DNA from: a virus
Strand: one strand, 5' to 3'
IMG/VR virus record: IMGVR_UViG_3300023170_000011
Span: 42,376 to 106,375 of that record
DNA length: 64,000 nucleotides
Part shown: positions 2,653 to 18,717 of the stretch, piece after piece
Numbering within the stretch: the first letter of the stretch is position 1
Layout of the letters: every line of letters begins with the position of its first letter
The notes under the pieces: model-generated
What the model was told of the DNA's origin: nothing
The model's database searches: none
Seen by the model: only the letters and a program-made list of their open reading frames with translations
Position numbers and translations under genes: made by a program

Positions 2653-3444
2653 GTGGGCGCAGTTTTAGATTTTAACAGATTTGTTTTAAATGAGGATAAG
2701 ATTGGTTCTTTTTATAACGATGAACTAAATCCAAAGTTCTGGGACAAATACAAAAACAAGAATGGTGAAACCCAATGGGTCTTTGATAGGCTAGTAAGAA
2801 AAAAGCTGCTTAAGATAGCCGAAGACTTCTATGAAAAATATAGTGATCTATTGGGAGACCTACCTATCGAGGATATACAACTCACTGGATCACTAGCTAA
2901 TTTTAACTATACAGATAAGTCAGATCTTGATGTTCACGTGCTGGTTGACTTTAATAAGGTAAAGTCAAAACCAGAGATGGTAAAAGCAGCAGTTGATGGT
3001 ATTAGGTTTGTTTGGAATCTAAGACATGATGTTGTTATTAGAAACCATGACGTTGAGCTTTATCTCCAGAATATACACGAGCCACATACAGCTTCTGGCC
3101 TTTATTCCCTGCTTAATGATAAGTGGATTAGAAAACCAAAGTTTGATCCCCCGGAGGTAGACGAGCAAGATGTAAGAAAGAAGTTTGATGGATTAGCATC
3201 CGAGATTAATCAAATGGAATCAAAGCTTGTTATTTCTGCATCACTTCCCAAAGATGCAAAGGAGATGTATAAAAGACTTCTTAGGCTGAAGGAGAAGATA
3301 CAGAAAATGAGAAAAGACGGACTTTCAAAGGACGGAGAATTCTCGATAGGTAACCTCGCCTTTAAAATGCTAAGAAACGAGGGATATATAAGTAAGCTCA
3401 TAGATTTAATTTCAAAAGCTTACGCTAGAATTTATTCAGAGTAA
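2653..3444 (+). CDS. Nucleotidyltransferase-fold protein with capsid-targeting-like leader
   Basis: This 263-residue protein has the polymerase-beta-type nucleotidyltransferase signature: GS at residues 79-80, then SDLDVHVLVD with Asp91 and Asp93, and a third acidic residue in DVELYL (about Glu135). Such enzymes transfer a nucleotide to RNA, protein or a small molecule; the target is unknown. The C-terminal third is helical and charged. The N-terminus reads VLDFNRFVLNED, matching the leader pattern of neighbouring head proteins and containing L-N-E at 12-14, a fit to the T4 prohead protease rule. I infer that it may be packaged and trimmed. The start is GTG at 2653: the frame is closed by a TAA at 2629 and no ATG follows for most of the protein. 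Confidence 0.78.
   Translation: MGAVLDFNRFVLNEDKIGSFYNDELNPKFWDKYKNKNGETQWVFDRLVRKKLLKIAEDFYEKYSDLLGDLPIEDIQLTGSLANFNYTDKSDLDVHVLVDFNKVKSKPEMVKAAVDGIRFVWNLRHDVVIRNHDVELYLQNIHEPHTASGLYSLLNDKWIRKPKFDPPEVDEQDVRKKFDGLASEINQMESKLVISASLPKDAKEMYKRLLRLKEKIQKMRKDGLSKDGEFSIGNLAFKMLRNEGYISKLIDLISKAYARIYSE
3382..3393 (+). promoter_or_regulatory. Possible late promoter inside the nucleotidyltransferase gene
   Basis: GGATATATAAGT matches the motif at 10 of 12 positions and lies 81 bases before the next start. It is within coding sequence and farther from the start than the intergenic copies, so it may be chance. Confidence 0.25.
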
Positions 3445-3462: not shown

Positions 3463-6162
3463 ATGATACTAGTATTTAGAAAGGGCCTTGAATATAATGG
3501 GAGCATGAACGGCCTCCCAGAAAACCAAGACGAGAACATTTTCCCAATCATGTCGGTTCCTCTTGATTTAGAGGGCGAAGAAACTGACCTTAATGATTTT
3601 CAATGGTGGGCATATTCTGACAAGTGGAATGAGTGGCTAAAAGATAACCCAAGAGAATGGAAAGCTGAATCTCATGACGTGAGGTTTGATAAGGCTGAGC
3701 AAATTTTAGAAGGTATAGTAACTGCTAAAAATCCTGTTACCGAATACGTTTCCCACCAGGCTAAGAGTTTATGGAAAAACGGTGAGGTTTCTTCCTTTTC
3801 TGATTATGTAAAAATGTTAGAAGCAGAAAGCACATCTGGATCTAGAGATGCTGCTAAGAAGTTTATTAAACTCGGGTATGCTTTAGAAAAACTTTCAAAA
3901 GAAGGAAAGCTTAAAGACGTCTTAAAGATGGAAGATCTCGAAGATGATAAGGAATATGCGGTTGTTGTCGATCCAATGACCGAGAGCGGTGACCCAGTTC
4001 AAGAGGCAAGACAGGCTTTGAGAATAAAGAAAATTGGGGATTCTGCCGGTATCATTATAGCTGAGGTTGATTACAGCATCCCATTGGGTGAAGTAGAGGA
4101 CACTAAGGATTTCATGGACAAGGTCGCAGAATTTGCTAAAGATGTAGCAATTGGAGGTGCAGGTCTTGCGGCACTTTATGGTGTAGCTCAAGTAGCTGGG
4201 TCTCTGTTCTTAGGATGGCAACTTTTAAAAGGAGCACGTGGTATTTACCGTACGCTCGGAAGGGCTAGAAGAATTCATAGCGCTGTTGCCGGTGCAAGAA
4301 CTGCAGGAGCACCTGCTTGGAACACGGTTAGATCTTTTGCTACAAGAGCTTTTACAAGAAGAGCAGGGGCACAAGCAGTTGCAAATGCTGCTAGAATTAC
4401 CTTACCTTCCGGTGCATTTGTTGAGGGCGGATTAGCTTACTCTACAAGAGCAACTGGAAATGTTCTTTTAAAAGGTGCAGCAGAAAAATCCGTTAAGTCA
4501 GCAGCACAAAGACTGGTAGCTCAAGGCGGAGCAAGAGCGGCAACAGCAGTAGCTGGTAGAGGAGCTGTAGCTGCTGGTGCAAGCTCAGCTGTAGCTGCTG
4601 AAGCTTCTAATCCAGTCGGATGGATTTTGCTAGCAGCTCAGGCAGTCGGTTCTGGAATTAATCAACTATGGAATTGGTATAGTGATAAACAAGCACCTAG
4701 GTACGGTGAAGTTGAGGACTTTGCATATGGAAGTTTTAATCCTAAAAATATTCCTGTAGGAAAGGCAATAACCGTTTGCTGGACTAGCGACGGTGGTGCA
4801 GGATGGGGTGAATATATCCTGGATATCTTAACTATGTCTAAGGATGATACTAGAACAACTATGGAATTGGTCAAACTTGGTGAGTTTGATGATAGGTCAG
4901 TTTTTGTAATGCTTCAAGTAAACTCAGAAATGTTTGAAAAGGCTATGAAGGATAACGACCTTATACTACTGTCTTTTGCTAACAATGATAAATTTGAAAG
5001 AGGAACATTTGATAATGATGATCTGGAATTCCAAACTATAGTTATTCCTGATATTACTGAACTTACAATTGGTACATCCTTTGTTGGATACTCAACATGG
5101 ACCGAAATGAAAGAGGCTTATAAAGAGAGCCCTGATAGCCCAATTTACGTACCAAGCGGAGCAAGAAAGGATTATCAATTCCATTACACAGACAAGGACG
5201 GAAACGATGTAAATGTAACTGGAACCCTTGTAAATGAAAATGAGATAAGTGACACAGTCCTACAGGATTTAGTTCCTGGTGCAGCTGGTGCTGTTGAGGA
5301 ATCTGCTAGTCCCGGTCTAGATTATTCGCACCTGGTAAATGAAAGCAAGGTATTATCATTCAACGACTTCTCAAATAGAGCTAATCCTATAATGGAAGAA
5401 GACGAAAACTCTCCAGAAGAAGATGGGAATACAGAAAATGCTGAGAGTACAGAATCCACTGAATCCACAGAAGGGAATACTTACGAGGAAGATTTGCTAA
5501 CCTCTCTTTCTGCTGCATCTCCACTCGAGACAGAATATAGTCAAATACCAGTATTAGCATATAGAGTTAATAGAATAAGTTTTGTCGACCCAACTGTTAA
5601 TGAAGATGTTGATCAGTTTAACTACTTTATAATCGGCGAGCAAAGTATGGATCCTAAACCAAATCAGCCAATCCTGGTTGAATCCGCTTCGGAGGATGCT
5701 ATTGAAGAACCTAGATTTGGATTGAAAACATACGTACCTCCAGTAGAGGATGATGAAAAAAAGGATGATAAGGAAGATGAGATTGATGACCCTGAAGTAA
5801 TTGATATCGAAGACGTCGATGAACCATCATCTAAAATGGTAAGAACACAAAGAGGCGATGTTCAAATAAAAAGCAAATCAGGATCCCTAACTATTAAAGA
5901 TAGAGAAATGGAAGGTGGCATTAACATCTTTGATGAATTTGCAAACTCTAGCTTGAAGAAAAAACTTAATATCGATGATTGGAAAAACATAACTAGCGTA
6001 AAGGTTAGGTATGATAATGAGGGAGAACCTAAAAAGGTAATTTTGAAAAACAGGTTTGCAAAAGTTGGTGATAGGAGAAGGGTTTTACAGAAAGGGGAGC
6101 AAGGATTTGAATCTGCTTTAAAATTTGCAGAGTCTGTAGAAGATGGTATATCTTTCTCCTGA
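3463..6162 (+). CDS. Large head-cluster protein with hydrophobic Ala/Gly-rich centre
   Basis: I do not recognise a family for this 899-residue protein. Residues 1-225 are polar and helical. Residues 227-256 (GGAGLAALYG, then SLFLGW) look like a membrane hairpin, followed by an Arg/Ala-rich stretch to about 380 and a second hydrophobic segment (PVGWILLAAQAVG, about 385-400). Residues 410-600 look globular. A linker contains V-N-E (625-627) followed by VLSFNDF, the leader-like motif of its neighbours, so the C-terminal part may be released by the prohead protease. A very acidic stretch lies at about 754-790. It sits between the nucleotidyltransferase and the protease. An ejected or membrane-inserting virion protein is one reading; a portal is not supported. 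Met15 (3505) is an alternative start. Confidence 0.7.
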   Translation: MILVFRKGLEYNGSMNGLPENQDENIFPIMSVPLDLEGEETDLNDFQWWAYSDKWNEWLKDNPREWKAESHDVRFDKAEQILEGIVTAKNPVTEYVSHQAKSLWKNGEVSSFSDYVKMLEAESTSGSRDAAKKFIKLGYALEKLSKEGKLKDVLKMEDLEDDKEYAVVVDPMTESGDPVQEARQALRIKKIGDSAGIIIAEVDYSIPLGEVEDTKDFMDKVAEFAKDVAIGGAGLAALYGVAQVAGSLFLGWQLLKGARGIYRTLGRARRIHSAVAGARTAGAPAWNTVRSFATRAFTRRAGAQAVANAARITLPSGAFVEGGLAYSTRATGNVLLKGAAEKSVKSAAQRLVAQGGARAATAVAGRGAVAAGASSAVAAEASNPVGWILLAAQAVGSGINQLWNWYSDKQAPRYGEVEDFAYGSFNPKNIPVGKAITVCWTSDGGAGWGEYILDILTMSKDDTRTTMELVKLGEFDDRSVFVMLQVNSEMFEKAMKDNDLILLSFANNDKFERGTFDNDDLEFQTIVIPDITELTIGTSFVGYSTWTEMKEAYKESPDSPIYVPSGARKDYQFHYTDKDGNDVNVTGTLVNENEISDTVLQDLVPGAAGAVEESASPGLDYSHLVNESKVLSFNDFSNRANPIMEEDENSPEEDGNTENAESTESTESTEGNTYEEDLLTSLSAASPLETEYSQIPVLAYRVNRISFVDPTVNEDVDQFNYFIIGEQSMDPKPNQPILVESASEDAIEEPRFGLKTYVPPVEDDEKKDDKEDEIDDPEVIDIEDVDEPSSKMVRTQRGDVQIKSKSGSLTIKDREMEGGINIFDEFANSSLKKKLNIDDWKNITSVKVRYDNEGEPKKVILKNRFAKVGDRRRVLQKGEQGFESALKFAESVEDGISFS

Positions 6163-6230: not shown

Positions 6231-8246
6231 ATGAACGAGTCTTTATTGAATGGGAACCTTCTCTTCATCCTTGAAAAGCAAGAAAATAATCTTGCAGTTT
6301 CAAAGGACGGTAACTCGGATGGTGGTGGTTATATACTCAAAGGTATTGCTGCTCAGTTTGGGAAAGAGAATAATAACAATAGAATATACGAGGAAGGTGA
6401 ATACCTACCTCACCTTGAGTACCTAAAGGATAAGATAGGACAAAAGAGATTAGTTGGTGAATTAGATCACCCTGAAAAATTCGACGTATCTCTTAAAAAC
6501 ATTTCTCACGTTGTAGAAGATCTTGTTTATGACAAGGACGGAAGAGTATTAAACATTAAGGTTCGTTTGCTTGACACACCAGCTGGACAAATTGCTAAGA
6601 AATTAGTTGATGCTGGTATACCTCTTTCTATTTCTTCTAGAGCAGCTGGAAATGTAGGTCCAGATAAGAAGGTACAGATCAAAAAGATCTTTACTTATGA
6701 TTTGGTTGCAGATCCAGGTTTCCAAGACGCTCAACTCGAGAGAGTTTATGAAAGCGCTGGATTTGATGCTTTTGAATTTGAAGAAAGATCAAAAAAATCC
6801 GTTGTTAACAACTTAGAGTGTGTAAATGAGTCACTAGGTATAGAAAATGAATCTGGGGTAAAGATATATAAAGTTGAAAATAGCGAAGAATTCGAAAAAA
6901 TCCTTAATCAAGAAAAAAATAAATCCAACATTATGGAGGCCAACAAAGAATATGTTACTGCTGACGAGCTTAATAAGTATTCTATCTTTTTGAAAAATAA
7001 GATGGATGAGCTGGAAACGCAGATTTCTGAAATGAAACAACAAGAAGCTCAAGTTTCCGAGAGCGAAAGTGAATCTGTAGATTGCAAAGCTTTGGAGGAA
7101 AGAGTTGCTAAGCTAGAAAAGTACTCCGAGTATCTTGCTGAAAATCTAGAAAGTGCTATTAAGTACGGTGAGTATTTGTCAGAAAACCTAGATAGCAGCA
7201 TTACGTATTCTAAGTACCTTGCTGAGAATCTAGACAAGACTATCTCTTATTCTAAGTATTTGGCCGAAAATGTTGATAAGGGTATTTCTTACACTGAATA
7301 TGTAGCTGAGAATGTTGATAAGACTATCGACTATTCTAAGTATTTGGCAGAAAAACTAGATGATGGTATTCAATATACAGAATACGTGGCTGAAAATCTT
7401 GATAAGAATATCGCTTACTCTGAATACTTAGCAGAAAATGTTGATAAGAACATTGCTTACTCTGAGTATTTGGCAGAGAATCTAGATAAGGGTATTTCTT
7501 ACTCTGAATATCTAGCAGAAAACTTAGATAAGGGAATAGCTTACTCTGAGTACATTGCAGAAAAACTAGATCAAGGAATAAACTACACTGAGTACCTAGC
7601 AGAAAACCTAAATAAAGGTATTGCTTACTCAGATTATTTAGCTGAAAAGCTAAATGGAAATATAGCTAACACTGAAGCTATACACGAAAGCGTTAAAGCA
7701 GAAAACTCGCCAACACTTAACGAAAGTGCTAGGGAAAATGCTGAAAGCGCATCTAAAACTGAATTGGTTGAATCAGGATTTGCTGGAGATTATGAAAATC
7801 TCGGAAGCAAGATTGATTCTCTAATTGAATCAGTCAAAACACAAAAGACTGAGGAAAATATAAATGAGGCACAAACGAAAGTTGAGCCGACTGCTCAAAC
7901 ACAAAAAGCAGATGAGGCAATCAACGAAGCCGAAGAAGAAACATTGGCAGGATCATCAGGTCACAAATTTATTGATGAAATGCCAGAAGATTACTCTCCG
8001 ATTTGGGAGTCACTAAATGAAAGTCAAAAGCAATCAGTAATTGCACAATCAGCTTTCTATAACTTAGAGACTGCTTATCAGATCAAGAACTTCTGGTCAA
8101 CTCGTCAGCTTGGTGCTAAACCAGTAGGACTTCAGAAACTTCAAGAGAGCCAAGAAACACCAGAGCCTAAGACGGCTACTAACCCTCAGGGGTATTCAAA
8201 CGATTACCTTAATTGGGTCGCTAAGTCGCTCGAAGGTAAGTTTTAA
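6231..8246 (+). CDS. Prohead protease fused to scaffold/core protein (gp21-gp22-like)
   Basis: Residues 35-175 match the T4 gp21-type serine protease: YILKGIAAQFGKEN, GELDHP with the catalytic His80, PLSISSRAAG with the catalytic Ser at 135 or 136, and VADPGF as the likely third site. In T4 the protease and the scaffold (gp22) are separate genes; here the protease runs into a 450-residue coiled, charged C-terminal part with thirteen 14-residue repeats at 297-478. That part contains [ILV]-N-E at 198, 496, 544, 564 and 595, as expected of a scaffold digested during head maturation. It directly precedes the capsid gene, the T4 order. A promoter-like motif at 6862 and an ATG at 6933 (residue 235) could give a separate scaffold. 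The protease call is firm; the scaffold call rests on position and composition. Confidence 0.9.
   Translation: MNESLLNGNLLFILEKQENNLAVSKDGNSDGGGYILKGIAAQFGKENNNNRIYEEGEYLPHLEYLKDKIGQKRLVGELDHPEKFDVSLKNISHVVEDLVYDKDGRVLNIKVRLLDTPAGQIAKKLVDAGIPLSISSRAAGNVGPDKKVQIKKIFTYDLVADPGFQDAQLERVYESAGFDAFEFEERSKKSVVNNLECVNESLGIENESGVKIYKVENSEEFEKILNQEKNKSNIMEANKEYVTADELNKYSIFLKNKMDELETQISEMKQQEAQVSESESESVDCKALEERVAKLEKYSEYLAENLESAIKYGEYLSENLDSSITYSKYLAENLDKTISYSKYLAENVDKGISYTEYVAENVDKTIDYSKYLAEKLDDGIQYTEYVAENLDKNIAYSEYLAENVDKNIAYSEYLAENLDKGISYSEYLAENLDKGIAYSEYIAEKLDQGINYTEYLAENLNKGIAYSDYLAEKLNGNIANTEAIHESVKAENSPTLNESARENAESASKTELVESGFAGDYENLGSKIDSLIESVKTQKTEENINEAQTKVEPTAQTQKADEAINEAEEETLAGSSGHKFIDEMPEDYSPIWESLNESQKQSVIAQSAFYNLETAYQIKNFWSTRQLGAKPVGLQKLQESQETPEPKTATNPQGYSNDYLNWVAKSLEGKF
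6862..6873 (+). promoter_or_regulatory. Internal late-promoter-like motif before possible scaffold start
   Basis: AGATATATAAAG lies inside the protease-scaffold gene, 71 bases before the in-frame ATG at 6933, which follows an A-rich tract like other starts here. The bases downstream (GTTGAAAATAGCGAAG) also resemble those after the copy at 6196 (GTTAAATAATAGCAAAG). Confidence 0.4.
7119..7664 (+). repeat. Thirteen in-frame 42-bp repeats (14 residues each)
   Basis: Residues 297-478 of the protease-scaffold consist of thirteen tandem 14-residue units close to AYSEYLAENLDKGI. The period equals two heptads, compatible with a long helical rod. DNA copies differ at many third positions, so the protein pattern is kept by selection and the array is not recent. 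Confidence 0.95.
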
Positions 8247-8272: not shown

Positions 8273-9994
8273 ATGAAACTAATCAACGAAGCAGAAATCT
8301 TCGAAACCTGGTCTCCTATCATCGAGCAGAAGGCCGGTATTCAAGATGCTGAAAAAAAAGGATGGTTGAGCAAGTACTGCCACTACCATTCATTAAACGA
8401 GTCTGCTGGTGCATATCAGTCACTAGCAACTGTAAACGGTATGGGTGCCGTACAACCACCCGCATACCCAGGTGGGTATAACTCCACTGGTTCTGCAGTA
8501 GGTACGCAAGCAAATTCTGCTTTCTATAACTCTGCTAACCAAGGTTCAGGTGATAAGTTTCCTTCACTTCTTCCATTGGCAATTCAGGTTGCTGCGAAGA
8601 CTGTTGGATTCGATATCGTTCCTGTAATTCCTATGTCAGGTCCTACTGGCGTACTTTCTTACCTAGATTACGTATACTCAGGTGGTAAAATCAGTCCTGC
8701 ATCTGCTGGCGCAACATCTGCTGAAGCTCTTGCAACTGCACCTTCTATGATCAAGGTAGAATTGACAACCCCTGCAGCAGGTTATCCTGCTAACTTTGCA
8801 GTAGGTACTACTTACTACATCACTAACGCTTCTTCAGCTGGTGCATATATCACTACTGAGTTTGTTGGTCTATCTAGAATCGATGCATTCCCAATCTTTA
8901 GAGTTATGGGATTAACTGCTGGTGAGACTATCTCTGCAGTTCTTGATGGTAACGCAGCTAAAATTGGTACTGCAGTAGATGGAAACCAAGCTGGTACTAC
9001 AACTGCGAGAGCAGAATTGGTTAAAGCTCTTGAGGATCACATCCAAGGATTCTCTGGTGCTGGTTTCAACAACGACCAAGACTGGCAAGGACCATTCGTA
9101 GATGGTACTAAGACTTACAACCCAATGCTAAGAGGTGTTGGTGAGAGCACTTACTACCAATCAATGGGTCTATCAACGTTCACTAAGTTCGTCGAAGCTG
9201 ATACTTTCCAAGTAGCTGCTTCAGTAACTACTGAGCAGATCCAAGACCTTAACAAGCAATTCGGTATCGACGTAATTTCTATGATCGAGAACGCATTGGT
9301 TAATGAGGTATCTCAAGCTATTAACAAGCACATCCTATCTAGAGCATTCGCTCTTGGTTGGTCTAACCACGACGAATTCTTGACTACAGAAGGTCAGAAC
9401 TTGAACCTAAACCTCGTTATCGGTGGTACTGCTGGTTCTTACACTATTCCTTCTTACATAGGTAAGTCTGACTCTGGTATCTCTATCGCTTCTGTTGCAG
9501 GTCCTGCTTCAGGAACTTACGAGAACTTGTCAACTCTACAGAGAAGACTATTCTCTAGAATTCTAGCATCTGCTAACGTGGTTGCTAACAGAGGAAGAAG
9601 AGGTCCTGCTAACTTCATCGTTACTAACGCTAACGTTGCAAGTGCATTGCAAGACATCTCTCAGTTCACTTTCGCACCTTTCTCTAACACTCTAACTCAG
9701 AACAACGGTACACTTTACCCAGTAGGTTCTCTTGCTGGTATGACCGTATATGTTGATCAGAACATGAAGTTCGGTGATAACAGAGTATTAGTAGGTAGAA
9801 AAGGTGGTGACGACGAACCAGGACTTAAGTTCATGCCTTACATGATGGCTGAGTCTATCCAAACAATCTCTGAAGGTACTATGTCACCTAAGATTGCGGT
9901 TAAGTCTCGTTACGCACTAGTAGAAGCTGGTTTCCACCCAGAAACTATGTACTTCTGTTTCCACGTGAACGTTCCTGCTGGAGGTCTATCCTAA
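8273..9994 (+). CDS. Major capsid protein, T4 gp23-like
   Basis: The 573-residue protein forms the head lattice. Its N-terminus (IFETWSPIIEQ) matches the gp23 leader helix, and KFPSLLPLAIQVAAKTVGFDIV followed by PMSGPTGVLSYLDYVY matches the gp23 start of the HK97-type fold; NFIVTNANVASALQD, TVYVDQNMKFGDNRVLVG and the AVKSRYALVEAGFHPE segment match the C-terminal half. T4 gp23 has 521 residues and loses a 65-residue leader. Here L-N-E at 41-43 followed by Ser44 is the likely cleavage point, leaving about 530 residues. Codons are strongly biased to C-ending AAC, TAC, ATC and TTC, unlike the neighbours, as expected of the most abundant product. It follows the scaffold by 26 bases and is closed by a terminator. 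Confidence 0.95.
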   Translation: MKLINEAEIFETWSPIIEQKAGIQDAEKKGWLSKYCHYHSLNESAGAYQSLATVNGMGAVQPPAYPGGYNSTGSAVGTQANSAFYNSANQGSGDKFPSLLPLAIQVAAKTVGFDIVPVIPMSGPTGVLSYLDYVYSGGKISPASAGATSAEALATAPSMIKVELTTPAAGYPANFAVGTTYYITNASSAGAYITTEFVGLSRIDAFPIFRVMGLTAGETISAVLDGNAAKIGTAVDGNQAGTTTARAELVKALEDHIQGFSGAGFNNDQDWQGPFVDGTKTYNPMLRGVGESTYYQSMGLSTFTKFVEADTFQVAASVTTEQIQDLNKQFGIDVISMIENALVNEVSQAINKHILSRAFALGWSNHDEFLTTEGQNLNLNLVIGGTAGSYTIPSYIGKSDSGISIASVAGPASGTYENLSTLQRRLFSRILASANVVANRGRRGPANFIVTNANVASALQDISQFTFAPFSNTLTQNNGTLYPVGSLAGMTVYVDQNMKFGDNRVLVGRKGGDDEPGLKFMPYMMAESIQTISEGTMSPKIAVKSRYALVEAGFHPETMYFCFHVNVPAGGLS

Positions 9995-10089: not shown

Positions 10090-11190
10090 ATGAGGAAAAT
10101 AAGCTCACATAAACAGTTCCTTATTGAAAGGGATCTTTCGGTAGAAGTAGATCAGGTGGTGTTAGCTGAAATGCTTCTGGACTATTATGGATTAAACGAG
10201 GGAAAGGCATTGGATACTCTTAAAAATTCGATTTCTAAAGCTTTATTTGGTCCTTTCTCCAGATTGTCTGTTATAGACACAATCAGGAAAGGAAATCTCG
10301 ATATACAAAAGGAGATCATTAGAAAACAGTATGATGTGGAAGATGAAATCCTAGATCTGGAGGATAGGATAGAGGAGCTGAGAAAGAGCGGATCCTCTAG
10401 GAGCGATATTTCACGAATTCAAACACAGATTGAAAGAAAGAGAAAGGAATATAGATCTTTTGTTAAAATGAAGAAGGAGCAGACCAATAAAGGGATGAAA
10501 CTTCTTGAGAAAACAATAGGTAAAAATCCAAGAAGGAGAGAATATTACGAGGCTGGATTCTTAGACGATAAATACGAACTTGCAAAGTTTGAATTTGAAC
10601 TTGCACAACAGAAATCTGCTGAAGCTGGAAATCTAAAAGATCTAAAGAAGGATCTTGAAGACGCTGCTAAAAAAGCAGAATCCTTTGTAGTAAAGACAAA
10701 AAGCTCTGCACAAACTAAGGGGAAAATAAAAGACTCCGAACTTGAGGATGTATCTGCTTTGAGAAAGAGAATCTCAGCAAATGATATGGGCGTTATAATA
10801 TCTCTAAGAGAAAAGTCTAGGGATAGAATAAAGGAGCTTAAATCACAAATGTCCAAGATTCTTAGCGATATGAAGGGATTTATTTCAAAATCTCCTACAT
10901 ACGAGGAGGTTAAAGCTTCTGGAAAAATAACAAAGGGTATAAACGATCTCGAATCCAAAGCTAATGAGATGGATTCATTAGATAACCTTTCTAAGGTTTA
11001 CTCTGATGTTATTTCTTCAAAGGGTAAATCTATTTCCAATGAATCATCATTGACTAGCTTATTTGGTAAGATTAACTCTGCTATTTCCGATGGAAATGAT
11101 GCAGGATCTGGTGTTACTAAAGATGTTGTGGATATGAAATCGGACATCACATTGAAAAAGATTGGAAATCTAATAAAAAAATTGTCCTAA
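10090..11190 (+). CDS. Coiled-coil head-cluster protein (366 aa), likely internal
   Basis: No family is recognised. The protein is highly charged, Lys/Glu-rich and almost entirely helical, with long coiled-coil stretches (for example EDEILDLEDRIEELRK at about 86-101, and 150-210). It begins ISSHKQFLIE, the leader-like pattern of this cluster, and has L-N-E-G at 35-38, a candidate site for the prohead protease. It is the first gene after the capsid terminator and is followed after 2 bases by a similar helical protein, so the pair is probably expressed together. A role as an internal core or DNA-associated head protein is inferred from position and the leader. A minor scaffold component is the alternative. 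Confidence 0.75.
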   Translation: MRKISSHKQFLIERDLSVEVDQVVLAEMLLDYYGLNEGKALDTLKNSISKALFGPFSRLSVIDTIRKGNLDIQKEIIRKQYDVEDEILDLEDRIEELRKSGSSRSDISRIQTQIERKRKEYRSFVKMKKEQTNKGMKLLEKTIGKNPRRREYYEAGFLDDKYELAKFEFELAQQKSAEAGNLKDLKKDLEDAAKKAESFVVKTKSSAQTKGKIKDSELEDVSALRKRISANDMGVIISLREKSRDRIKELKSQMSKILSDMKGFISKSPTYEEVKASGKITKGINDLESKANEMDSLDNLSKVYSDVISSKGKSISNESSLTSLFGKINSAISDGNDAGSGVTKDVVDMKSDITLKKIGNLIKKLS

Positions 11191-11192
11191 AG

Positions 11193-12086
11193 ATGCTTTT
11201 AAAATTTAAAGAGTGGGAATCACAAAACATAAATGAAGGGGATGTTAGCCTTGATAAGATTATGAATTGGCTTAGCTCTAATTTTGGTGGTACAATATCT
11301 AAAATAGATTCTTTGCTTTCCAAAATAAGTTCCATAGAAACCCAATATTCTAAAGACTGGAATGATATCCAGACTGATATAGATGCACTGGAGGTAAAGA
11401 AAGCTCAAACAAAGAGCGATCCTGCTGAAGCTAAGAAGCTGGAAAGAATGATTGATAGGAATCAGAAATTGCTTACAGCTTTAAACAAGAAAAGAAAAGC
11501 GGACATAGCTAAGGTTGATGATAAAGTAGAAAAATTAACTAAAGGTAAAACAAGACTTGTTTCTTATTGGAATTTAAAGAAGGCTGAATTGGAAGCAGAT
11601 CTCGCCGAGAGTATGTACAAGATGGCTAAAGATCTTACTGACGAATCTGTTGCTGATGAATTGTACGACAAATACAAAGAGGCAGCACTTCAAGCGAAAT
11701 CTAAAGATGAGAAGTTTAGGGAAAGGTTTGGTAAGTTGGAATTAGCTAAGCCCTCCACTCTTAAATCAGATACTGAGTCTAAGGCTATATCAGGTGCTAA
11801 CTTTTCAATGGATCCTATCTTTTCAATGAACGCTCCCCAATTTACTAAATTCGTTCAGGATTTGGAAAAGAGTCAGGTAAGCGCATTAATCAAAGCCATG
11901 CAATCCGAAAGAAATGAAAGATATGCTACTTTAGATACCGAAAGAGATAGACTTGAAGCTCAAGCTGAAAAGAAAGGTTTGTCTCGGGATAGTGTGAAGA
12001 GGGATCTTTCAGATCTACGTGAAACTCTAATGAGACAAATTAGGGATTTGAGAACTAAAATAACTATTGCTAGAAGATATGCTTAA
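11193..12086 (+). CDS. Coiled-coil head-cluster protein (297 aa), likely internal
   Basis: Unrecognised, charged and helical, with coiled-coil heptads over most of its length (residues 45-180 and 225-290). The N-terminus LLKFKEWESQNINEG carries the leader-like pattern and I-N-E-G at 13-16, one of the clearest candidate prohead-protease sites here. Composition and size resemble the preceding 366-residue protein, and both have an ELA/DLA-rich central helix, but I see no convincing alignment that makes them paralogues. Its stop overlaps the next gene's ATG by 8 bases. Function is inferred only from location downstream of the capsid gene. Confidence 0.75.
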   Translation: MLLKFKEWESQNINEGDVSLDKIMNWLSSNFGGTISKIDSLLSKISSIETQYSKDWNDIQTDIDALEVKKAQTKSDPAEAKKLERMIDRNQKLLTALNKKRKADIAKVDDKVEKLTKGKTRLVSYWNLKKAELEADLAESMYKMAKDLTDESVADELYDKYKEAALQAKSKDEKFRERFGKLELAKPSTLKSDTESKAISGANFSMDPIFSMNAPQFTKFVQDLEKSQVSALIKAMQSERNERYATLDTERDRLEAQAEKKGLSRDSVKRDLSDLRETLMRQIRDLRTKITIARRYA

Positions 12087-17657: not shown

Positions 17658-18338
17658 ATGGCTAATAATATTAAATCCTTTGAGGATTTTAAATCTGATA
17701 TAGCTCAGGAAGTAAACGAGAGCTGGTTCTCTGATATACTTGGGTATGCTGGAGGTGCATTTAGCGATGTTCTAAAAGGTAAAGCATCTGCTTACCTTAT
17801 GAGTTTCTTTGGTATTGGTGAGCAATCTATATTTAGTAAACTTGTACAGAACTTTGTAGAACAAATTCCAATTGCAGATTTAACCAAAATTATATTTGCT
17901 GGTAAGGCAAATTCTGCTTACCTTGCTCCAAAAATGGCTGACGCAACTATAGAATTCCTTTCTGAGAAAGGTCTAGACGGGATAGCAGAGGATCTCCATA
18001 TAGAGCCTTCTGGATGGATTTACAGGACATTATCAGAGATAATAAGCAACCAAGCAAGAAGGGAAAATTTCAGGGAATCCTTGGTTAAATTTTACTTGCA
18101 AGCATTTAATGGATTTGAAAGTCCTGATGTCGAGGAATTTAAAAGTTCTTTATCTTCCATGGATAAAAGAAGTCTGGAAAGGGGTCTAGAGGATGCTTCC
18201 AGAAGATCTGGTGCTGATTTAGATGTGGCATCTAGCGAAGCTGGAAGGGATATGGTTACTGACTTTTTATCTGGATTAGCTGGTGATGGTCAATCAATGC
18301 AATCTCTCGGATTAAGTACTGGGGGAACAATACAATAA
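17658..18338 (+). CDS. Probable virion protein with capsid-targeting-like leader (226 aa)
   Basis: Family unknown. The N-terminus NIKSFEDFKSDIAQEVNES is the clearest match in the window to the leader pattern of T4 internal head proteins, with V-N-E-S at 19-22 as a candidate cleavage site. After it comes a Gly/Ala-rich amphipathic region (ILGYAGGAFSDVLKG; YLMSFFGIG), then a helical body and a Ser/Gly-rich tail. It follows its own late-promoter-like motif by 26 bases and is 13 bases ahead of another leader-bearing protein. A packaged head protein is inferred from the leader. Confidence 0.7.
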   Translation: MANNIKSFEDFKSDIAQEVNESWFSDILGYAGGAFSDVLKGKASAYLMSFFGIGEQSIFSKLVQNFVEQIPIADLTKIIFAGKANSAYLAPKMADATIEFLSEKGLDGIAEDLHIEPSGWIYRTLSEIISNQARRENFRESLVKFYLQAFNGFESPDVEEFKSSLSSMDKRSLERGLEDASRRSGADLDVASSEAGRDMVTDFLSGLAGDGQSMQSLGLSTGGTIQ

Positions 18339-18351
18339 AAATACTAATATC

Positions 18352-18717
18352 ATGAATATAAATGACGTAGCAAAGAGAGAGGTTTTAGACTTTGATCAAT
18401 TTAAGAAAAAGGTACACGACGAAACATACAAACCATTCGCTGCTGAAAATCAAGAAGGTGGTGAAGGAAAGACTGGACTACATAGGATAAAAAGAGAGCC
18501 TGCTTACGATTGGGTTGGCTATGCTGATGCAGTATTTAGCCCAGAAAAAGCGGGAATCGAGGTTCCTGGATATAATGCTGATGGTGACAGAGAGTACAAC
18601 ATTGCAAATGCTGGTCCTTCTATAGTAAATGCCCCAAATTCTTCTATCTCTGGATTGGGAGAATCTGAAACACCAGTTAATGAATCGTTTTCAATTAAGA
18701 GGTTAGAAGATTTCTAA
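18352..18717 (+). CDS. Small probable virion protein (121 aa)
   Basis: Family unknown. The N-terminus reads EVLDFDQFKKKVHDE, the leader-like pattern, and the C-terminus reads PVNESFSIKRLEDF with V-N-E at 109-111, so both ends look like substrates or targeting elements of the head. The middle is polar with YDWVGYADAVFSPEKAG. It is transcribed with the 226-residue protein and closed by a terminator 26 bases downstream. Its small size and two end motifs suggest a minor head component. Confidence 0.65.
   Translation: MNINDVAKREVLDFDQFKKKVHDETYKPFAAENQEGGEGKTGLHRIKREPAYDWVGYADAVFSPEKAGIEVPGYNADGDREYNIANAGPSIVNAPNSSISGLGESETPVNESFSIKRLEDF

Follow-up and report, generated by a model that had tools for sequence, protein, structure and literature searches.

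The window analysed here is a 64,000-nucleotide stretch of viral DNA (G000:C1:42376-106375) from the 106-kb IMG/VR virus record IMGVR_UViG_3300023170_000011; coordinates below are window positions. On the plus strand, positions 2653-3444 encode a 263-residue protein that is a Pol-beta-superfamily nucleotidyltransferase (NTase) by fold and catalytic residues. The protein starts with a T4-type capsid-targeting leader, its gene shows late-type control and linkage to head genes, and a homolog was detected in purified virions of a cyanophage. According to the reading we favour, the enzyme would be made late in infection, its leader would dock it onto the prohead core, and the S77 prohead protease would cut after Leu-Asn-Glu14. 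The mature enzyme would remain in the head and enter the next host along with the DNA. There it would transfer a nucleoside monophosphate (NMP) to a protein or an RNA of the host in early takeover or counter-defence. Packaging into the head is quite likely, injection with catalysis on a host component is somewhat better than an even proposition, and the reading as a whole is moderately probable.

The nucleotidyltransferase and its leader

The open reading frame at 2653-3444 is a genuine gene. Its GTG is the sole ATG, GTG or TTG start possible at that place in most close relatives, and it lies 30 nt past a late-promoter-like element, a spacing shared with other late genes. The analysis used stretches of the record and contig stretches of relatives, whose loci or contigs are given L-numbers (L001 onward). 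The protein matches PHROG 36119, a family of no known function, at 2e-37. In Pfam it falls just below threshold in NTP_transf_2/Polbeta (18.3 bits against a cut-off of 21), and relatives L097, L102, L116 and L138 pass the NTP_transf_2 cut-off. The first-pass annotation had read GS and SDLDVHVLVD as marks of an NTase fold, and both are present, at residues 79-80 and 90-99. The alignment of relatives identifies G79-S80 (2887-2892) as the catalytic glycine motif, D91-x-D93 (2923-2931) as the metal-binding carboxylates and, together with the model, E135 (3055-3057) on the next strand (DVELYL) as the third catalytic carboxylate. This is the superfamily signature: G[GS], then [DE]x[DE], then a third carboxylate on a later strand. 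D74, G79, S80, S90, D91, D93, H95, D99, E135, R220, K238 and R241 are invariant across 73 aligned relatives, an alignment that leaves out the L022-L024 clade.

The AlphaFold model of the whole protein has a mean pLDDT of 88, with residues 1-15 below 50. Because helical-bundle matches to the C-terminal domain swamped the whole-protein structural search, the NTase domain was modelled by itself (pLDDT 92.6). The top VIA structural rows for the domain are NTases: 1ylq and 2rff at Z 6.8, MNT antitoxin at 6.5, and, with Z near 6, FAM46, AadA, CD-NTases and Tailor. These Z values are middling, but the rows agree on NTase identity, which together with the invariant residues bears out the fold assignment. 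The model of the active site, a check suggested in the first-pass annotation, has strand 92-98 beginning with DxD, and E135 lies inside strand 132-140; this strand placement, on which the case for a catalytic geometry is based, is the one expected for the superfamily. An identity as an ADP-ribosyltransferase of the T4 Alt type was considered and rejected, since the Pfam and structure matches are NTases and none is an ADP-ribosyltransferase.

The leader occupies residues 1-14 (2653-2694). The N-terminus reads MGAVLDFNRFVLNE followed by D, a pattern F-x-x-F-x-L-N-E that is disordered in the model, with cleavage predicted after Glu14 by the T4 rule; the string VLDFNRFVLNED covers residues 4-15. 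In T4, the 10 N-terminal residues of internal protein IPIII are enough to package it: targeting depends on residues 4 and 7 and processing on residues 8 and 10, with cleavage by gp21 after L/I-x-E (PMC9026906). T4 IPII and IPIII both start MKTYQEFIAE. Across seven close lineages of the window protein, V/I4, F7, F/Y10, L12, N13 and E14 are kept, with L12-N13-E14 invariant, and residues 2, 3, 5, 6, 8, 9 and 11 vary. Relative L021 reads LNE/S (a slash is set after the glutamate), and distant relatives carry MKSYNNFITE, LKPYNQFLNE/G, LKPYTSFINE/G, FKQWILNE/G and FDDFLGE.

The motif [FY]xx[FYW]x(0-3)E stands ahead of the NTase domain in 36 of 74 dereplicated relatives, compared with a mean of 4.7 and a maximum of 15 in 2000 shuffles; the pattern was picked after looking, and the counts are not phylogenetically independent. 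A strict form taken from T4 occurs in 12 of the 74 (shuffle mean 0.6, maximum 5), and control windows within the NTase domain contain the motif in 27 of 946 cases. The conserved residues and these counts strongly support the capsid-targeting leader proposed in the first-pass annotation.

Probable late control and the head-gene block

The element GATATATA lies at 2623-2630, 30 nt ahead of the NTase start codon. The whole record has 19 copies on the coding strand, where 3.7-5.8 would be expected, and none on the opposite strand; among the copies are those at 2623, 6197, 10060, 17633, 20293, 33721, 37097 and 50582. Thirteen of the 19 precede a predicted gene start by 25-71 nt, and in 12 of these the distance is 25-52 nt. 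The distance is 34 nt for the protease gene, 30 for the gene of a 366-residue protein and 25 for that of a 226-residue protein, and the spacing of the last two is conserved in relatives. The distribution of GATATATA suggests that it is probably the late promoter of this phage group. Ahead of the NTase, the element occupies the tip of a hairpin whose arms read GGGATTGTTTGGA and TCCAAATAATCCC (2612-2652); a TTTTTT run comes next, and then the GTG. Relatives preserve this hairpin through compensatory changes, and its folding is much more favourable than that of shuffled sequences (z -2.7 to -5.0). In T4 gene e, early read-through RNA conceals the start in such a structure, and the late transcripts, which start within the hairpin, are translated (PMC3014915). 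The layout of hairpin, putative promoter and start is the same here and would restrict NTase synthesis to the late phase. Short palindromes like this one also seem to flank GATATATA before 17658 and at window coordinate -21677 of the same record.

The NTase gene is two genes ahead of the prohead protease, with the capsid gene after the protease. The protease (6231-8246, plus strand) is a Peptidase_S77 of the T4 gp21 family, over the Pfam cut-off, and is the candidate processor of the leader. It is fused to a repetitive scaffold-like region, a long array of ~18-residue repeats (YxEYLAENLDKxIxYS) that is perhaps a built-in scaffold. The major capsid protein (8273-9994, plus strand) belongs to the Gp23 family (Pfam E 6e-41) and has a conserved maturation-like site, HSLNE/SAGA; the L-N-E is common to this site and the NTase leader. 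The order exonuclease, NTase, 899-residue protein and prohead protease, in which an unmatched gene may replace that of the 899-residue protein, is kept to 52-55% NTase identity, and the capsid gene follows wherever the locus extends that far. A Fpg/Nei-type DNA glycosylase gene (1096-1890) lies upstream in the window, as does a Fpg-like gene in most of these loci. In the distant L073/L074 and L122, a protease homolog still flanks the NTase. The 899-residue protein (3463-6162, plus strand) contains an internal leader-like site, LVNE/SKVLSFNDF. A conserved L-N-E/S followed by VLSFxDF lies beside a Gly/Ala-rich, tape-measure-like stretch of that protein. Because the nearest relatives of the capsid protein are those of Lak phages, an uncultured megaphage and Tenacibaculum and Sphingomonas phages, the sequence suggests a Bacteroidota host.

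The first-pass annotation had also seen an aliphatic-x-x-F-x-x-F/W pattern at the start of four other proteins. All four bear it, and it is kept in relatives to ~40-60% identity. They are encoded on the plus strand: the 366-residue protein at 10090-11190 (leader ISSHKQFLIE), a 297-residue protein at 11193-12086 (LLKFKEWESQNINE/G), the 226-residue protein at 17658-18338 (IKSFEDFKSDIAQEVNE/S) and a 121-residue protein at 18352-18717 (VLDFDQF). The 297-residue protein keeps [IVL]NE among its relatives, which read INE/G, VNE/S or LNE/A at the end of the leader. When L/I/V/M-x-E is added to the pattern, a form chosen after looking, it gathers in the head block (6/17 genes vs 4/72, p=0.003). On contig L123, which comes from a Bacteroidetes metagenome-assembled genome and is probably phage, T4-type leaders are present on three neighbouring genes, namely KPYTSFINE on the NTase and IKLFESFITE and HNFNNFLNE on the other two.

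Relatives of the NTase are found in at least 599 viral-contig loci, and 45 annotated phage records match it, including cyanophages, Caulobacter phage Cr30, Maribacter phages, and Lak and other megaphages. Some relatives are fusions. In L133 (3971-7729), a 1252-residue protein joins the NTase to DUF5662 and an S-adenosylmethionine (SAM) lyase domain. An N-terminal HAD-like domain (KYKIYVDMDGVLTDWE; motif DMDGVLTDW), with no recognition by Pfam, precedes the NTase in L105 (2503-3663) and L107 (2506-3663), and similarly in L109, L115 and L120. L065 has a sub-threshold DUF3008 match.

Virion evidence and competing explanations

The virion evidence comes from S-CREM2, a T4-like cyanophage with a published CsCl-purified virion proteome of 52 proteins; what follows draws on parts of that paper (PMC10665884). 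By sequence search, its ORF156 (126012-126725) is a homolog of the window NTase with 30% identity. In Table 3 of the paper it is listed with 6 unique peptides and 15.2% coverage, labelled 'Hypothetical protein', which strongly supports the presence of a homolog in virions.

The S-CREM2 list also serves to calibrate the leader. The pattern [FYL]xx[FYW][LIVMF]xE occurs near the N-terminus of 7 of the 52 virion-detected proteins and 4 of 167 undetected ones (p=0.004). Its carriers include a SAM hydrolase (MKDFDSFLEE), an APH/ChoK-like kinase (MKRFDAFLTE), a cytidylyltransferase (MKNFSSFLTE) and Cas9 (FASFMAE), together with gp13 and gp136, all six being virion proteins that have no assigned structural role, and one baseplate protein, probably by chance. 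Detected and undetected proteins are not separated by a looser pattern with a variable gap before h-x-E (p=0.25) or by a bare h-x-E near the N-terminus (p=0.32). The Cas9-like protein detected in these virions is encoded at L039 7704-10313, with its T4-type leader at residue 19. The 14-protein virion proteome of S-CREM1 does not mention a nucleotidyltransferase, and virion proteomics was looked for in the Maribacter phage Molly paper and not found.

Several observations weigh against a packaged and active enzyme, beyond the phylogenetic dependence of the leader counts. The motif is missing from about half of the 74 relatives, and no leader of this kind precedes the NTase domain in the HAD fusions. 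As a marker by itself, the loose pattern of the first-pass annotation failed: it is not enriched genome-wide (23 observed vs 19 expected) and is therefore unusable alone. In S-CREM2, ORF156 is only 30% identical, its leader MKKLISE/L has an I-x-E site but no F-x-x-F, and the authors of that study caution about carry-over in CsCl preparations (PMC10665884). In L022 (6001-6750), L023 (1753-2244) and L024 (6001-6492), the leader FDDFLGE, the open frame and the gene order are kept, and GP/SPLE replaces GS/SDLD. A second NTase copy was looked for on these three contigs and none was found; catalysis is therefore dispensable in that clade. Sequence and structure comparisons point to no substrate.

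The alternative that survives best, unlikely though not negligible, is an RNA-end enzyme that repairs or tails tRNA or other RNA in the infected cell, whether packaged or not. Phage Pol-beta NTases are known for RNA repair, as in jumbo phages, where RlaP and CCA-adding NTases serve it (PMC7824862). Terminal uridylyl- and poly(A) polymerases are among the structures that the domain model resembles, and the HAD-like domain of some relatives is of a fold class used by 3'-phosphatases. However, neither an RNA ligase nor an RlaP profile match was found in the record. The RlaP family (PF10127) does not match the NTase protein at E up to 10, where weak matches may be filtered, or anything in the genome up to E 1. 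No tRNA genes were found in the scanned stretches (the window and L002-L003), and late control with head-gene linkage favours the virion over mid-infection repair.

It is also unlikely that the protein is packaged as a non-catalytic internal head or core protein, with the NTase fold serving as a scaffold or as a nucleotide or DNA binder and catalysis optional. The L022-L024 clade, which keeps the intact frame, leader and gene order without GS or DxD, fits such a role. Against it, all catalytic residues together with H95 and D99 are kept in 73 of 73 aligned relatives outside that clade, a conservation that a structural role does not need.

A third explanation, distinctly improbable, is that the likeness to a leader is an incidental property of an amphipathic N-terminus, that the S-CREM2 detection is lysate carry-over, and that the NTase is an ordinary cytoplasmic late protein. 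The relatives without the motif, the caution of the S-CREM2 authors and the genome-wide frequency of the loose motif speak for this. The excess of the motif over shuffles, its retention while neighbouring residues vary, and the conserved leaders on other head-block proteins speak against it. Carry-over can be judged from replication proteins, which are usually abundant. The RecA-like recombinase gp43, the ssDNA-binding gp200 and NrdA/B (gp163/164) are missing from the S-CREM2 detected list, as given in the parts of the paper used here, so a general carry-over of non-structural proteins is unlikely. Finally, a small-molecule NTase like the aminoglycoside adenylyltransferases, or a nucleotide-signal synthase like the CD-NTases, is highly improbable: the first Foldseek rows are AAD(9), ANT(6) and AadA, with CdnC/CdnD lower, and one cyanophage homolog is annotated 'aminoglycoside nucleotidyltransferase', but these similarities are weak (best E 1.5e-3, TM 0.24) and lie in the generic NTase core, and packaging brings no obvious benefit for an aminoglycoside target.

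Relation to known phage systems

The favoured reading, a late, leader-bearing NTase that would be packaged and injected, is of a known kind, namely an injected capsid enzyme with a T4 leader; this chemistry in that role was not found in the literature searched. A broader proposal is possible but more tentative: a widespread family of head-carried NMP-transferases may be injected as infection begins, often in company with anti-restriction enzymes, and nucleotidylate a protein or an RNA of the host, as the NMPylation counterpart of T4 Alt. If true, it would add a second widespread injected-enzyme family with another chemistry, in cyanophages, Bacteroidota phages and megaphages. The combination of leader, L-x-E and late promoter gives a calibrated sequence-level listing of T4-like head cargo, and with it the cargo of uncultured phages becomes predictable and testable.

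Among other NTases, the RlaP and CCA-adding enzymes of jumbo phages (PMC7824862) are likewise phage-encoded members of the Pol-beta superfamily; the window NTase differs in having no RlaP profile match, and an RNA ligase was not found in its record. The protein adenylyltransferases of the GlnE/DrrA type share the G-to-DxD spacing (G-x11-D-x-D). Their profile matches are weak (SidM_N at E 1.5e-4 in L054 only, a DrrA chain at E 0.06), near noise and limited to the shared NTase core, and the resulting tilt toward this type is too slight to count. The fusion of NTase relatives to other early-effector domains, as in L133 with S-AdoMet lyase and DUF5662, is reminiscent of phage polyvalent proteins (PMC5512222), whereas the window protein consists of one domain and has a leader of its own. 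The lyase fusion would fit an early counter-defence cargo and parallels the SAM hydrolase that is found in S-CREM2 virions with the NTase homolog. In that phage, all four cargo enzymes with T4-type leaders (SAM hydrolase, Cas9, kinase and cytidylyltransferase) share the virion list with ORF156, and in the sections of the paper considered here ORF156 is only 'hypothetical' and leaders are not described (PMC10665884).

The closest parallels are in T4 itself. Like the window NTase, the internal proteins IPI, IPII and IPIII begin with a leader whose aromatics stand at i and i+3 and which has an L/I-x-E processing motif; a gp21-family protease in the same genome and late expression, which is putative for the window phage, are shared as well. 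They differ in cargo, being small basic proteins rather than an NTase. The window leader is one residue longer between the second aromatic and L-x-E (F-V-L-N-E vs F-I-A-E in T4), and the exact T4 spacing is present in relatives L092, L050 and L054. The late promoter of T4 is TATAAATA, different from the putative GATATATA of the window phage. Alt of T4 is the textbook example of an enzyme that enters the host with the phage DNA. Its leader, MELITELFDE, is reminiscent of the MKKLISEL with which the S-CREM2 NTase begins, and the window NTase would resemble Alt as a virion enzyme that modifies a host component when infection begins. The two differ in fold, which is unrelated, and in chemistry, with transfer of ADP-ribose by Alt and of NMP expected for the NTase.
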